Source: Archaeoglobales archaeon (GTDB taxonomy: Archaea > Halobacteriota > Archaeoglobi > Archaeoglobales > Archaeoglobaceae). Taken from it: a stretch of DNA of 51,174 nt. The stretch lies in the NCBI GenBank assembly GCA_029984855.1, contig JARQZL010000026.1, forward strand, positions 1 to 51,174, in the 5' to 3' direction. Numbering within the stretch: the stretch's first letter is position 1; each line of letters opens with the position of its first letter. Both the position numbers and the translations under genes were made by a program. Positions 14,072-17,062 of this stretch are shown piece by piece. Under the pieces are notes generated by a model, which saw only the letters and a program-made list of their open reading frames with translations, did not search any database and was not told where the DNA came from.

Positions 14072-14605
14072 ATGTTGGAAATAAGGTTTCATGGAAGAGG
14101 TGGGCAGGGGAGTGTCACTGCAGCAGAAATCTTGGCAATTGCGGCATTTAGAGACGGTAAGTATAGCCAAGCTTTTCCTATTTTCGGAGTTGAGCGAAGG
14201 GGTGCACCGGTTCAGGCATTCTGCCGCATCGACGAAAAGCCGATAAGACTGAGATGCCAGGTCTACGAGCCGGATATGGTGATTATTCAGGATGCAACGC
14301 TTATTTCGGATGTTGATGTTACTGCCGGGCTAAAAGAAGAAGGGCTTGTTTTGATAAATTCTGCAAAACCACCGGAGGAGTTCAGTTTTGATGGAGCTGT
14401 TGTTAAGACTGTTGATGCAACCCGGCTTGCCCTTGAAACGCTTGGCAGACCAATAGTCAATACAGTCCTGCTCGGCGCTCTTGCCAAGCTGGGTGTCGTT
14501 TCACTGAACTCTATCGTAGAGGTAGTTGGCATGAAGTTTGGTGGAAAAACCGGTGAAAAAAATGTTATTGCGGTTAAAAAAGCGTTTGAGGAGTTGCCAA
14601 TATGA
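14072..14605 (+). CDS. porG: 2-oxoacid:ferredoxin oxidoreductase gamma subunit (PorG)
   Basis: A 177-residue gamma subunit of pyruvate (or related 2-oxoacid):ferredoxin oxidoreductase. It has the signature [15 protein letters not shown] (residues 8-22), the [15 protein letters not shown] segment, and [17 protein letters not shown]. In the complex it lies against PorA and contributes to CoA-dependent oxidative decarboxylation. GGAGG at 14061 defines ATG 14072, although the frame is open further upstream. Its stop overlaps the next start in ATGA. It is followed by the PorD/NfnB hybrid, nfnA, the second hybrid, porA and porB. Confidence 0.93.
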
Positions 14606-15765
14606 GAGCTGGAGGAGTTACTGAAGGAGGAACGACACTGGGAGTTAAAACCGGGGCTTGGAGAAACTTCAGACCTGTGAGAGATGAGATGAAGTGCAAG
14701 CGAGGATGCGAGCCTGTGGCGATAGGCAGGCTTGAACGATTTGTTGCAGACTGGGAGCTTGAGAATGGGCTAAGGATCCCTGAAAAAGCTGAACCAACAG
14801 GAAAGAAAGTCGCAGTTGTCGGATCCGGGCCTGCCGGTCTGACCATTGCTGCAGAGCTGGCGAAAAAAGGGCACGAGGTTACAATTCTCGAAACCCTGCA
14901 TAAACCTGGGGGAGTTCTTGTTTACGGGATTCCAGAATTCCGTTTGCCGAAGAGAATAGTGGAGGCTGAGGTGGAGTATGTAAAAAAGCTCGGAGTCAAT
15001 ATAATGACCGATGTCATCGTTGGCAAAACCCTGACAGTCGATGATCTGCTTGAAGAATATGATGCGGTCTTCCTTGGTACGGGAGCTGGTTTACCACTCT
15101 TGCTCGGCATCCCTGGTGAGAATCTTGCTGGAATCTACTCTGCAAACGAGTTCCTGATAAGAATCAATCTGATGAAAGCCTATGCATTTCCGGAATATGA
15201 CACGCCCATCAAGGTAGGTAAGAAAGTTGCGGTGATAGGTGGAGGAAATGTTGCGATGGATGCTGCAAGGTGCGCTCTTCGACTTGGAGCTGAGGAAGTT
15301 TCTATAGTCTATAGACGAAGCGAGGAGGAGATGCCTGCAAGAAGGGAGGAAATAGAGAGGGCAAGAGAAGAGGGCATCAGGTTTGTTACTCTCACACAGC
15401 CAGTTCGTTTCATAGGTGAGGAGAAGGTTGAAGGGATGGAGTGCATTCGGATGGAGCTTGGAGAGCCTGACGAGAGTGGAAGAAGAAGACCCGTGCCTGT
15501 AGAGGGTAGCAATTTCACCATGGAGGTTGATCAGGTTATAATAGCTATAGGCCAGAGACCAAACCCGCTTGTGATGCGCACAACAGAGGGACTCGATTAC
15601 GACAGGAGGAGAGGTATAGTCATTGCAGATAGCATGGGCAGAACAAGCAAGGAAGGTGTTTTTGCCGGTGGAGATGTCACAACCGGGGCTGCAACTGTTA
15701 TAGCAGCCATGGGAGCTGGTAAGAGGGCTGCAGAAGCTATAGATAAATTCCTGAGGGGTGAGTGA
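14602..15765 (+). CDS. Hybrid: PorD N-terminus fused to NfnB/SudA flavin domains
   Basis: A 387-residue hybrid. Residues 1-32 are the N-terminus of PorD ([20 protein letters not shown], then RPVRDEMKC). From about residue 33 it is NfnB/GltD-type oxidoreductase: [19 protein letters not shown]-binding GSGPAG (74-79), NADPH-binding GGGNVA (213-218), and the C-terminal FAD motif [14 protein letters not shown]. The NfnB N-terminal Fe-S domain (about 105 residues) is missing here but is encoded at 16589. The family transfers electrons among NADPH, NADH and ferredoxin. The start overlaps the porG stop (ATGA), and nfnA begins at the next base after the stop. Confidence 0.9.
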
Positions 15766-16587
15766 ATGGCAAGAATTCTGGAAAAAACTGAGCTCGCTCC
15801 GGACATAAAGGAAATGGTTGTTGATGCGCCGCTGATTGCGAGAAAGGCTGAGCCGGGGCAGTTTGTGATAGTTGTTGTGGATGATAAGGGTGAGAGAATT
15901 CCCCTTACAATTGCTGACTTTGATAGAGAAAAAGGAACAATTACCATAGTCTTCCTTGAAATTGGTAAAACAACAATGAAGCTCGGCAGGCTTAACGCTG
16001 GCGAGGAGATAGCGCACCTGACAGGTCCCCTCGGCAATCCGTCTGAGATACCCGAAGATGAGACCATTGTTTTTGTCGGAGGCGGTGTTGGAACGGCTGC
16101 AGTGTATCCGATAGCAAGAAAGGCGAAGAAATCCAATGAGATCATATCGATAATAGGGGCAAGAACAAAGGATGCCCTCATCTGGGAAGATAGGATGAGG
16201 AGCGTTAGCGATGAGCTGATCGTAACGACGGATGACGGCTCATACGGCAGGAAGGGTGTTGTTACCGAACCTTTGAAGGAGTTGCTGGAGGAAAAAAAGG
16301 TTGACAGAGTTGTTGCAATAGGGCCGGCGATAATGATGAAGTTCGTTGCCTTAACGACGAAACCCTATGGCGTTAAGACAATTGCAAGTCTGAACCCCAT
16401 AATGGTTGACGGAAGCGGGATGTGTGGAGCGTGCAGAGTTCAGGTTGGCGGAGTAACGAAGTTTGCCTGTGTTGATGGGCCAGAGTTTGATGCCCATGAA
16501 GTTGATTTTGATTTACTGATGAAGAGACTTTCAACTTACAGGGAAGAGGAGGAGCTTGCAAAGAAGCTCTTTGTTGAAGGTGGTTGA
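15766..16587 (+). CDS. nfnA: NADH-dependent ferredoxin:NADP oxidoreductase small subunit (NfnA)
   Basis: A 273-residue FAD/NAD reductase of the dihydroorotate dehydrogenase-B electron-transfer type, the small subunit of Nfn (SudB). The FAD-binding domain contains ERIPLTIADFDRE. The NAD-binding half starts with VFVGGGVGTAAVYPIARKAK. The C-terminus has the [2Fe-2S] region GSGMCGACRVQVGG and FACVDGPEFD. In Nfn this subunit binds NAD(H) and partners NfnB in flavin-based electron bifurcation. It is complete and lies between the two PorD/NfnB hybrids, immediately after the first. Confidence 0.92.
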   Translation: MARILEKTELAPDIKEMVVDAPLIARKAEPGQFVIVVVDDKGERIPLTIADFDREKGTITIVFLEIGKTTMKLGRLNAGEEIAHLTGPLGNPSEIPEDETIVFVGGGVGTAAVYPIARKAKKSNEIISIIGARTKDALIWEDRMRSVSDELIVTTDDGSYGRKGVVTEPLKELLEEKKVDRVVAIGPAIMMKFVALTTKPYGVKTIASLNPIMVDGSGMCGACRVQVGGVTKFACVDGPEFDAHEVDFDLLMKRLSTYREEEELAKKLFVEGG

Positions 16588-16588
16588 G

Positions 16589-17062
16589 ATGGAGCTAATT
16601 GAATTTCAGCGTAATAAAACTCCCATACCAGAAAGGCCTGTGGAGGAAAGAATCAGGGACTTTAAGGAAGTCGCTCTTGGATACACCCAGGAACTTGCAG
16701 AAAATGAAGCAAAGCGATGTCTTCAATGCCTCGAGCCCAACTGCATCTCCGGGTGTCCCGTAGAGATCGACATCCCCGGCTTTATAGCCTGTATAGTTGA
16801 GGGTAACCTTGAAAAAGCTGCAGAAATCCTTAGAGAGAAGAACGCCCTGCCGGCGATATGTGGCAGAGTATGCCCTCAGGAGACGCAGTGTGAGATAAGA
16901 TGTGTTGAATGTGGTATATGCTGGATGTACTGCCCGGAGGGCTGCCTTGTTCTCAACGAGAATGGATTTTTTGAACCGGACTATGACTACTGCAAGGGAT
17001 GTGGTATATGTGCTGAAGTTTGCCCTCTCGGAGCAATAACGATGGAGGTAGAAGTTAAATGA
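16589..17062 (+). CDS. Hybrid: NfnB N-terminal Fe-S domain fused to PorD ferredoxin domain
   Basis: A 157-residue hybrid. Residues 1-105 are the N-terminal Fe-S domain of NfnB/GltD: RCLQCLEPNCISGCPVEIDI (Cys 44, 47, 52, 56) and CGRVCPQETQCEIRC (Cys 91, 95, 101, 105). From residue 105 it is the PorD bacterial-type ferredoxin: CVECGICWMYCPEGC and YCKGCGICAEVCPLGAI (Cys 135, 138, 141, 145). Cys105 is both the last Cys of the NfnB motif and the first of the PorD motif. I chose ATG 16589 just after the nfnA stop; a frame from 16556 would overlap nfnA. The end overlaps porA in ATGA. Confidence 0.9.
   Translation: MELIEFQRNKTPIPERPVEERIRDFKEVALGYTQELAENEAKRCLQCLEPNCISGCPVEIDIPGFIACIVEGNLEKAAEILREKNALPAICGRVCPQETQCEIRCVECGICWMYCPEGCLVLNENGFFEPDYDYCKGCGICAEVCPLGAITMEVEVK

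Follow-up and report, generated by a model that had tools for sequence, protein, structure and literature searches.

What kind of enzyme is encoded by an operon for pyruvate:ferredoxin oxidoreductase (POR) in which both PorD, the 2[4Fe-4S] subunit of POR, and NfnB, a part of the electron-bifurcating transhydrogenase NfnAB, are divided over two genes? This question is raised by contig JARQZL010000026.1 of an Archaeoglobales archaeon of the family Archaeoglobaceae (assembly GCA_029984855.1), of which the 51,174 nucleotides of the forward strand (positions 1 to 51,174) are termed the window below. Six plus-strand genes, in the order porG, gene 1, nfnA, gene 2, porA and porB, occupy positions 14072-19088 (Table 1). 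A first-pass annotation made from the sequence alone had read gene 1 as an NfnB that lacks its Fe-S domain and is preceded by about 32 residues of PorD, and gene 2 as the missing Fe-S domain joined to the PorD ferredoxin domain. Matches to purpose-built profiles and to NCBIfam models for gene 1, and to these and Pfam for gene 2, bear out both assignments: PorD and NfnB have exchanged halves reciprocally.

Exchange of halves between PorD and NfnB

The PorD profile was built from 14 intact PorDs (21 loci tried) and the NfnB profile from nine archaeal NfnBs (13 loci tried), two of which are nearly identical. Gene 1 matches the PorD profile at positions 4-35, with 25.0 bits for the whole protein and 31.2 bits for residues 1-40, and the NfnB profile at positions 114-465 (603.5 bits); gene 2 matches the NfnB profile at positions 11-110 (134.1 bits) and the PorD profile at positions 32-85 (74.7 bits). 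When the halves were joined in silico, a PorD of 84 residues (119.3 bits) and an NfnB of 460 residues (755.0 bits) were obtained, in agreement with the earlier claim that the halves sum to proteins of normal length. Complementary and nearly gap-free coverage of both profiles was found in four genomes, namely the source genome and those designated G001, G010 and G020: PorD positions 4 or 6 to 35 (37 in G001) lie in gene 1 and 32-85 in gene 2, and NfnB positions 9-11 to 110 lie in gene 2 and those from 112 or 114 onward in gene 1. The operon accordingly contains no PorD in the form of a single 2[4Fe-4S] subunit of about 85 residues, and NfnB is not one polypeptide downstream of nfnA but is split and permuted in all four chimeric genomes.

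Resemblance of the start of gene 1 to PorD by chance was ruled out by two controls: shuffled versions of residues 1-40 reached at most 8.8 bits (1931 scored of 2000 shuffles), and 18 N-terminal and junction stretches of the nine NfnBs reached at most 2.4 bits against the PorD profile, as compared with 31.2 bits for the genuine stretch. Among the NCBIfam models, gltA is passed by gene 1 (483.9 bits; cut-off 471.75) and PorD_KorD (TIGR02179) by gene 2 (70.9 bits; cut-off 60.05); gene 2 stays below the cut-off of PorD_Arch (73.0 bits; cut-off 120) because it holds only half a PorD. The Pfam domains of PorG, PorA and PorB all exceed their cut-offs, and PorA is placed inside the POR tree.

The junctions are located, as first annotated, at a common E-[MI]-[KR]-C stretch, and the two 12-base segments that encode it are identical at 8 of 12 positions. 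Cys105 of gene 2 is common to the NfnB motif and the PorD ferredoxin, the PorD match beginning at residue 104. NCBIfam and Pfam matches likewise agree with the earlier statement that a complete nfnA lies between the chimeric genes and that porG and porA-porB flank the set. All frames are open, as had been noted, with ATGA stop/start overlaps at porG/gene 1 and at gene 2/porA; the gene 1 stop codon directly abuts the nfnA start codon, and nfnA and gene 2 are separated by one base.

Table 1. Positions of the operon genes, of the exchanged halves and of the junctions in the window
Feature	Coordinates	Strand	Evidence
porG, gamma subunit of POR	14072-14605	+	NCBIfam PRK08534, 256.5 bits (cut-off 225); Pfam POR
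Gene 1 (387 residues)	14602-15765	+	PorD N-terminal part, then NfnB minus Fe-S domain
Gene 1 residues 1-32, PorD N-terminal part; last residue is junction Cys32	14602-14697	+	PorD profile 4-35
Junction 1, E-M-K-C (gene 1 residues 29-32)	14686-14697	+	
Gene 1 residues 33-387, NfnB without Fe-S domain: Glu45 ligand, flavin adenine dinucleotide (FAD) and NADP domains	14698-15765	+	NfnB profile 114-465; gltA; structure model
nfnA, complete: FAD, ERIPLT, [2Fe-2S] motif DGSGMCGACRx10C	15766-16587	+	NCBIfam PRK06222, 412.2 bits (cut-off 220); motifs
Gene 2 (157 residues)	16589-17062	+	NfnB Fe-S domain, then PorD ferredoxin
Gene 2 residues 1-105, NfnB N-terminal Fe-S domain: RCx2Cx4Cx3CPV and GRVCPQExQCx3C	16589-16903	+	Pfam Fer4_20 (residues 21-107); NfnB profile 11-110
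Junction 2, E-I-R-C (gene 2 residues 102-105)	16892-16903	+	
Gene 2 residues 106-157, PorD C-terminal 2[4Fe-4S] ferredoxin domain	16904-17062	+	TIGR02179; PorD profile 32-85
porA	17059-18210	+	NCBIfam PorA_Arch, 544.7 bits (cut-off 550); Pfam POR_N and PFOR_II over cut-off
porB, thiamine pyrophosphate (TPP) and one [4Fe-4S] cluster (ligands presumably Cys23, 26, 51 and 213)	18189-19088	+	NCBIfam PorB, 397.1 bits (cut-off 405)

Directly upstream of the operon, positions 13302-13910 hold a divergent PorG-like gene with weak PorC matches (54.4 bits; cut-off 270). A similar gene stands at the same place in G001 (L046:6132-6800, minus strand), and none was found beside porG in G010 or G020. Downstream, adjacent genes at 21031-22391 resemble, by eye, S-adenosylmethionine decarboxylase and a branched-polyamine synthase.

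Distribution, selection and origin of the chimeric genes

Matches to gene 2 that span its junction were found in 4 of 59 genomes of the class, those of heat-loving archaea from two genera of one family, and the same four genomes gave the only such matches in a sample of 392 genomes of the phylum (nine candidates scored per genome, E <= 1e-40). The first-pass annotation had proposed looking for the arrangement in related Archaeoglobales, and it is present there. G001, of the same genus, carries the same gene order within a single contig of 1,901,943 bases, with 88% identity in both chimeric proteins, and G010 and G020, of a second genus of the family, show the same operon order. The G010 operon was pieced together from two contigs with an exact 127-base overlap inside gene 1; in G020 the operon is spread over two slightly different contigs, one covering porG up to the beginning of gene 2 and the other nfnA to porB. 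Gene 1 and nfnA are joined in one reading frame in the second genus, giving a PorD-N::NfnB-C::NfnA protein of 689 residues in G020 (L050:3896-5965) and a fusion that is also in frame, across the two overlapping contigs, in G010 (L047:3-1076). The two G020 contigs (C87 and C100; loci L050 and L049) are slightly different part-copies of the operon in a 2.6 Mb genome, perhaps from two strains in one assembly, and their ends show no exact overlap. Seven other genomes of the class match gene 2 at E <= 1e-15: the match lies inside a frame of 482-502 residues, the ordinary size of NfnB, in five (G021, G029, G186, G195 and G289) and is confined to the ferredoxin half in two (G013 and G036), G013 representing a POR locus of the same family with an intact PorD. 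No further chimera was found among the best 80 of 589 relatives' NfnB loci, and others may exist elsewhere.

The chimeric genes are under strong purifying selection. In a comparison of the window with G001, in which synonymous sites are saturated, the proportion of nonsynonymous differences (pN) was 0.083 in gene 1 and 0.080 in gene 2. Its ratio to the synonymous proportion (pN/pS) was 0.20 in the PorD-N part of gene 1, 0.10 in the remainder and 0.07 in the 31 codons about the junction; in gene 2 it was 0.13 in the NfnB part and 0.03 in the PorD part, with zero amino-acid changes in 30 codons at the junction.

Ordinary relatives show how the parts are normally arranged. At 26 POR loci from other genomes of the phylum, which were the best-ranked by PorA and not a random draw, no match to gene 1 or nfnA was found within about 4 kb beside the por genes (0/26); gene 2 matched between porG and porA at 22 of the 26, with its PorD half only, and a whole PorD was recognized by a strict pattern at 18, at least two being fused to PorG. 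Among the 80 NfnB loci, which come from a wide range of bacteria and archaea, the NfnB halves stand in ordinary order and frame at 78 (at the other two, the gene 1 part found no match), and nfnB is immediately preceded by nfnA at 74 (six gave no nfnA match), the order described as normal in PMC6405883. In phylogenetic trees, the chimeric PorAs fall into a single clade (support 100/99, 49 rows) that stands apart from the canonical Archaeoglobaceae POR. A single clade is likewise formed by the chimeric NfnB parts (100/99, 85 rows), and it groups with other archaeal NfnBs, two of them from the same family (95/84). These single clades indicate that the exchange happened once, either prior to the split of the two genera or with a single later transfer. 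No sign of a recent transfer between the genera was seen: summed by eye, the PorA path from G000 to G020 measures about 0.75 changes per column among the chimeric PorAs versus about 0.57 in the canonical clade.

As to the route, the first-pass annotation had held that single-crossover insertion of a circular nfnA-nfnB DNA into porD gives exactly this gene order. The cyclic order nfnB-C, nfnA, nfnB-N inside porD is indeed as expected from such an event, in which a circular or tandem nfnAB copy would have been inserted into porD at the codons for the Cys common to both Fe-S motifs. This is one of several routes and is not singled out by the sequence: the order could also result from loss after tandem copying of nfnAB, or from fission and fusion as separate events, and the 8/12 base identity at the junctions neither proves nor excludes a short homologous crossover.

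The source genome carries two further porG-D-A-B operons with whole PorDs. They lie on contigs C88 and C85, and their PorAs share 43% and 50% identity, respectively, with that of the chimeric operon; the C85 PorA falls in a clade that is represented at all 12 of the Archaeoglobaceae loci of its type included in the tree. No second nfnB of comparable score was found in the genome (next gene 1 match, E 9.7e-13). Intact porD and nfnB genes elsewhere had been named by the first-pass annotation as evidence against the fusion; nfnB has no such second copy, and porD does have two, yet these belong to paralogous PORs. Two complete porGDAB operons and the lack of a second nfnB thus mark the chimeric operon as what appears to be a specialised third POR beside two ordinary ones. 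Ordinary POR does not depend on the chimeric operon, but the latter contains the only Nfn found in the genome.

Cluster ligands and the proposed POR-Nfn complex

The published NfnB motifs are RCx2Cx4Cx3CPV and GRVCPQExQCx3Cx13Gx2ER (PMC6405883), and one of the two NfnB clusters is a Glu(Cys)3 cluster (PMC8097209). In the chimeric operon all NfnB Fe-S ligand motifs are present but divided over two proteins, the exchange point separating the last Cys of the second motif from the Glu. Across 42 aligned rows, Cys44, 47, 52, 56, 95, 101 and 105 of gene 2 do not vary, nor does Glu45 of gene 1 across 36; Cys32 of gene 1 is kept in 3 of 3 aligned gene 1 rows and in the G010 fragment, so that both junction Cys, one per chain, are retained in every chimeric copy seen. 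The cluster-ligand residues of the chimeric proteins are all kept, including those of G010 gene 1. The motifs of PorB, gene 2 and NfnA, the last comprising ERxPxT and the [2Fe-2S] motif D-GMCGxCRx10C, were found in 4 of 4 chimeric operons, and the FAD and NADP motifs of gene 1 in all three of the four in which they were tested.

From these ligands, the proximal NfnB [4Fe-4S] cluster would be held by Cys56, 95 and 101 of gene 2 together with Glu45 of gene 1, and would thus be a two-chain cluster, and the distal one by Cys44, 47 and 52 of gene 2 together with either Cys105 of gene 2 or Cys32 of gene 1; the distinction between proximal and distal follows what we take to be the ligand numbering of GltS and dihydropyrimidine dehydrogenase (DPD; C140 and Q156 in DPD). 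The PorD clusters are assigned by the ligand scheme of 8Fe ferredoxins. Under that scheme, the first Cys of PorD cluster I could only be Cys105 of gene 2 or Cys32 of gene 1. Each chain supplies exactly one such Cys and both are kept, so that the chains would have to meet at the electron exit of NfnB. Cys105 is three residues from Cys108, the second PorD ligand, and PorD cluster I would therefore lie beside the NfnB distal cluster; on this chain-length estimate, the distance between the two clusters should hardly be far beyond the usual tunnelling limit. In ordinary Nfn, the predicted docking site of free ferredoxin is near the NfnB distal cluster (PMC6405883), and PorD cluster I would occupy that place.

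These considerations suggest that the operon, written porG - (PorD-N::NfnB-C) - nfnA - (NfnB-N::PorD-C) - porA - porB, would encode one obligate POR-Nfn complex. The chimeric chains would cross at one Cys each and co-fold, the NfnB Fe-S domain and the PorD ferredoxin being completed only by both chains, and POR would be locked to Nfn because each Fe-S domain needs both. Electrons would pass along a wire from TPP through the PorB cluster, the PorD clusters, the NfnB distal and proximal clusters and the bifurcating FAD to NADP(H), with a second branch through the [2Fe-2S] cluster and FAD of NfnA to NAD(H). The net reaction, reversible and without free ferredoxin, would be pyruvate + CoA + NADH + 2 NADP+ = acetyl-CoA + CO2 + NAD+ + 2 NADPH (CoA, coenzyme A), and in the reverse direction NADPH-driven bifurcation would power pyruvate synthesis. 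POR and Nfn are probably built as one machine with direct electron passage; the conserved ligands, and how few residues separate them, give good grounds for proposing such transfer. We consider it reasonably probable that POR and Nfn form a complex in which an unbroken wire links TPP to the bifurcating FAD, and that this complex runs the reaction between pyruvate and NAD(P) in either direction. The fuller proposition, a new flavin-based bifurcating pyruvate synthase/oxidase that is ferredoxin-free, with partners locked by the exchanged halves and clusters ligated across the exchange, is put forward tentatively, its probability being judged a little short of even.

Several observations weigh against this reading. 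PorA and PorB score slightly under the cut-offs of their best NCBIfam equivalogs, and pyruvate, to which family position points, is therefore a likely rather than a proven substrate. The spacing from Cys32 of gene 1 to the Gly before the Glu ligand is 9 residues, versus 11 in canonical archaeal NfnBs such as L019 and 13 in the published motif. AlphaFold2 modelled gene 1 with a mean predicted local distance difference test score (pLDDT) of 84.4 and NfnB (4ylf_B) as the best PDB match (TMq 0.87), with residues 1-35 under 50, and the gene 2 model is poor (mean pLDDT 57.7; residues 92-157 under 50), its alignment having held no intact PorD rows; low pLDDT in these two segments makes the models uninformative on the junction. 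The arrangement is rare in the class, and G002, of the same genus and 76% complete, gave no junction-spanning match. Finally, the ordinary operons on C88 and C85 could supply PorD.

An assembly chimera or decaying pseudogenes might be suspected, given that the source genome consists of 154 contigs with an estimated contamination of 2.88% and that contig ends fall inside the operon in G010 and G020. An assembly artefact is, however, ruled out by the presence of both junctions within the single contig of G001 and in the second genus, and pseudogene decay by the open frames and the purifying selection between the source genome and G001, which leaves this explanation a vanishingly small probability. 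The junctions at 14.69 and 16.90 kb, whose disappearance on reassembly had been named at first pass as grounds for doubt, have their counterparts in those genomes. It is also conceivable that ordinary POR and Nfn are interlocked without being wired, sharing a strand crossing through constructive neutral evolution while each enzyme still uses free ferredoxin and their physical union adds no chemistry of its own. Selection on the parts would then be explained by each enzyme's own function, and the ligand sets of both enzymes are complete; yet the join coincides with the cluster through which electrons leave NfnB and with the first PorD ligand, three residues from the second, where by our own geometric estimate there is little room for electronic separation, and it has been kept in two genera. 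Mere interlocking is accordingly regarded as unlikely.

Another arrangement would be a ferredoxin-equipped Nfn consisting of gene 1, NfnA and gene 2, in which the ferredoxin domain derived from PorD would serve as an integral acceptor or adaptor, with PorG, PorA and PorB borrowing PorD from a paralogous operon. Intact PorD-family genes do exist on C88 and C85, but they sit in their own operons with PorAs of limited identity; moreover, the ferredoxin half is the most constrained part of the chimeras, and the PorD-N signature KTGxWRxFxP, which has no evident use in Nfn, is kept in gene 1 of three genomes and of G010. Such borrowing is judged improbable. Should the wired POR-Nfn complex prove correct, POR, a central carbon enzyme, would join the bifurcating class with a built-in ferredoxin. 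Bifurcating enzymes typically hand their low-potential electrons to soluble ferredoxin; here, the electrons from NADPH bifurcation would be fed straight to the carboxylation of acetyl-CoA, or confurcated from pyruvate. Two unrelated proteins that have traded halves in nature, with the products conserved and under selection, are themselves a striking case of protein evolution, in which a crossover at one common cluster ligand may have welded two redox enzymes into one.

Comparison with known systems

No description of a PorD-NfnB chimera, of which the first-pass annotation had known none, was found in the literature searched, in which coverage of subscription papers is mostly lacking. The novelty holds for the chimera but is narrowed by known relatives, as NAD-linked 2-oxoacid oxidoreductases have been described and NfnB has been reported within a ferredoxin domain, namely in HdrA 9-11 of anaerobic methanotrophic archaea of group 1 (ANME-1; PMC9012536). 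The ANME-1 proteins resemble the present ones in this placement of NfnB, but they are single chains with HdrA as host and involve no exchange of halves between two proteins, whereas genes 1 and 2 encode separate proteins; the accessible text of PMC9012536 contains no mention of a permutation or of a POR-NfnB fusion. No HdrA family appears among the best 25 of 95 and the best 25 of 37 NCBIfam matches of genes 1 and 2, or among all Pfam matches. In two HdrA-like proteins of the same phylum, named by eye (L041 and L042), NfnB is circularly permuted among ferredoxin motifs (profile positions 49-466 then 10-84, and 53-465 then 10-64), with the cut after the RCLxC motif as compared with after the last Cys in the chimeric operon. 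Permuted NfnB beside ferredoxin motifs thus probably arose more than once. The same NfnB permutation was also seen in another long protein, L044.

DPD is similar in that a GltD-type Fe-S domain contacts a 2[4Fe-4S] (8Fe) ferredoxin domain to form a four-cluster chain (PMC8097209), and differs in its catalytic partner and topology, the flavoprotein part being 28-31% identical. A 2-oxoacid oxidoreductase with its own pyridine-nucleotide flavoprotein is reportedly found in the phenylglyoxylate:NAD+ oxidoreductase PadEFGHI, which Hirsch is said to have described in 1998. That enzyme is not known to have NfnA or swapped chains. The Pad equivalogs failed here (score/cut-off: PadE, 167.2/300; PadF, 51/150; PadG, 343.1/700; PadI, 234.3/700). 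POR beside a dedicated redox partner is also found in ANME-1, where it clusters with FrhB6 (PMC9012536), and in the Chloroflexota bacterium REEB34 (L088:1-5396), where nfnA and nfnB, in their usual order, come directly after a POR G-A-B reading frame; no other of the best 80 NfnB loci showed por matches within the DNA retrieved. In both cases the genes are separate and ordinary, with no exchange of halves. By analogy, these cases indicate that POR-type enzymes do acquire dedicated redox partners.

The closest counterparts are the two parent enzymes. The operon shares with archaeal PorGDAB (PDB 9bt4; gene 2 residues 104-156 match its delta chain) the genes porG, porA and porB and both PorD halves in the usual order, and differs in that nfn material interrupts PorD at the first of its cluster ligands. 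With NfnAB (PDB 4YLF, 5JCA) it shares every part of NfnA and NfnB, cofactor motifs included, as well as the fold predicted for gene 1, and differs in that nfnA stands between the two pieces of a circularly permuted NfnB, each of them fused to half a PorD, so that a covalent ferredoxin would stand where free ferredoxin would dock. Each part of the operon therefore belongs to a known family, and neither PorD nor NfnB has its standard form, each being divided over two chains.

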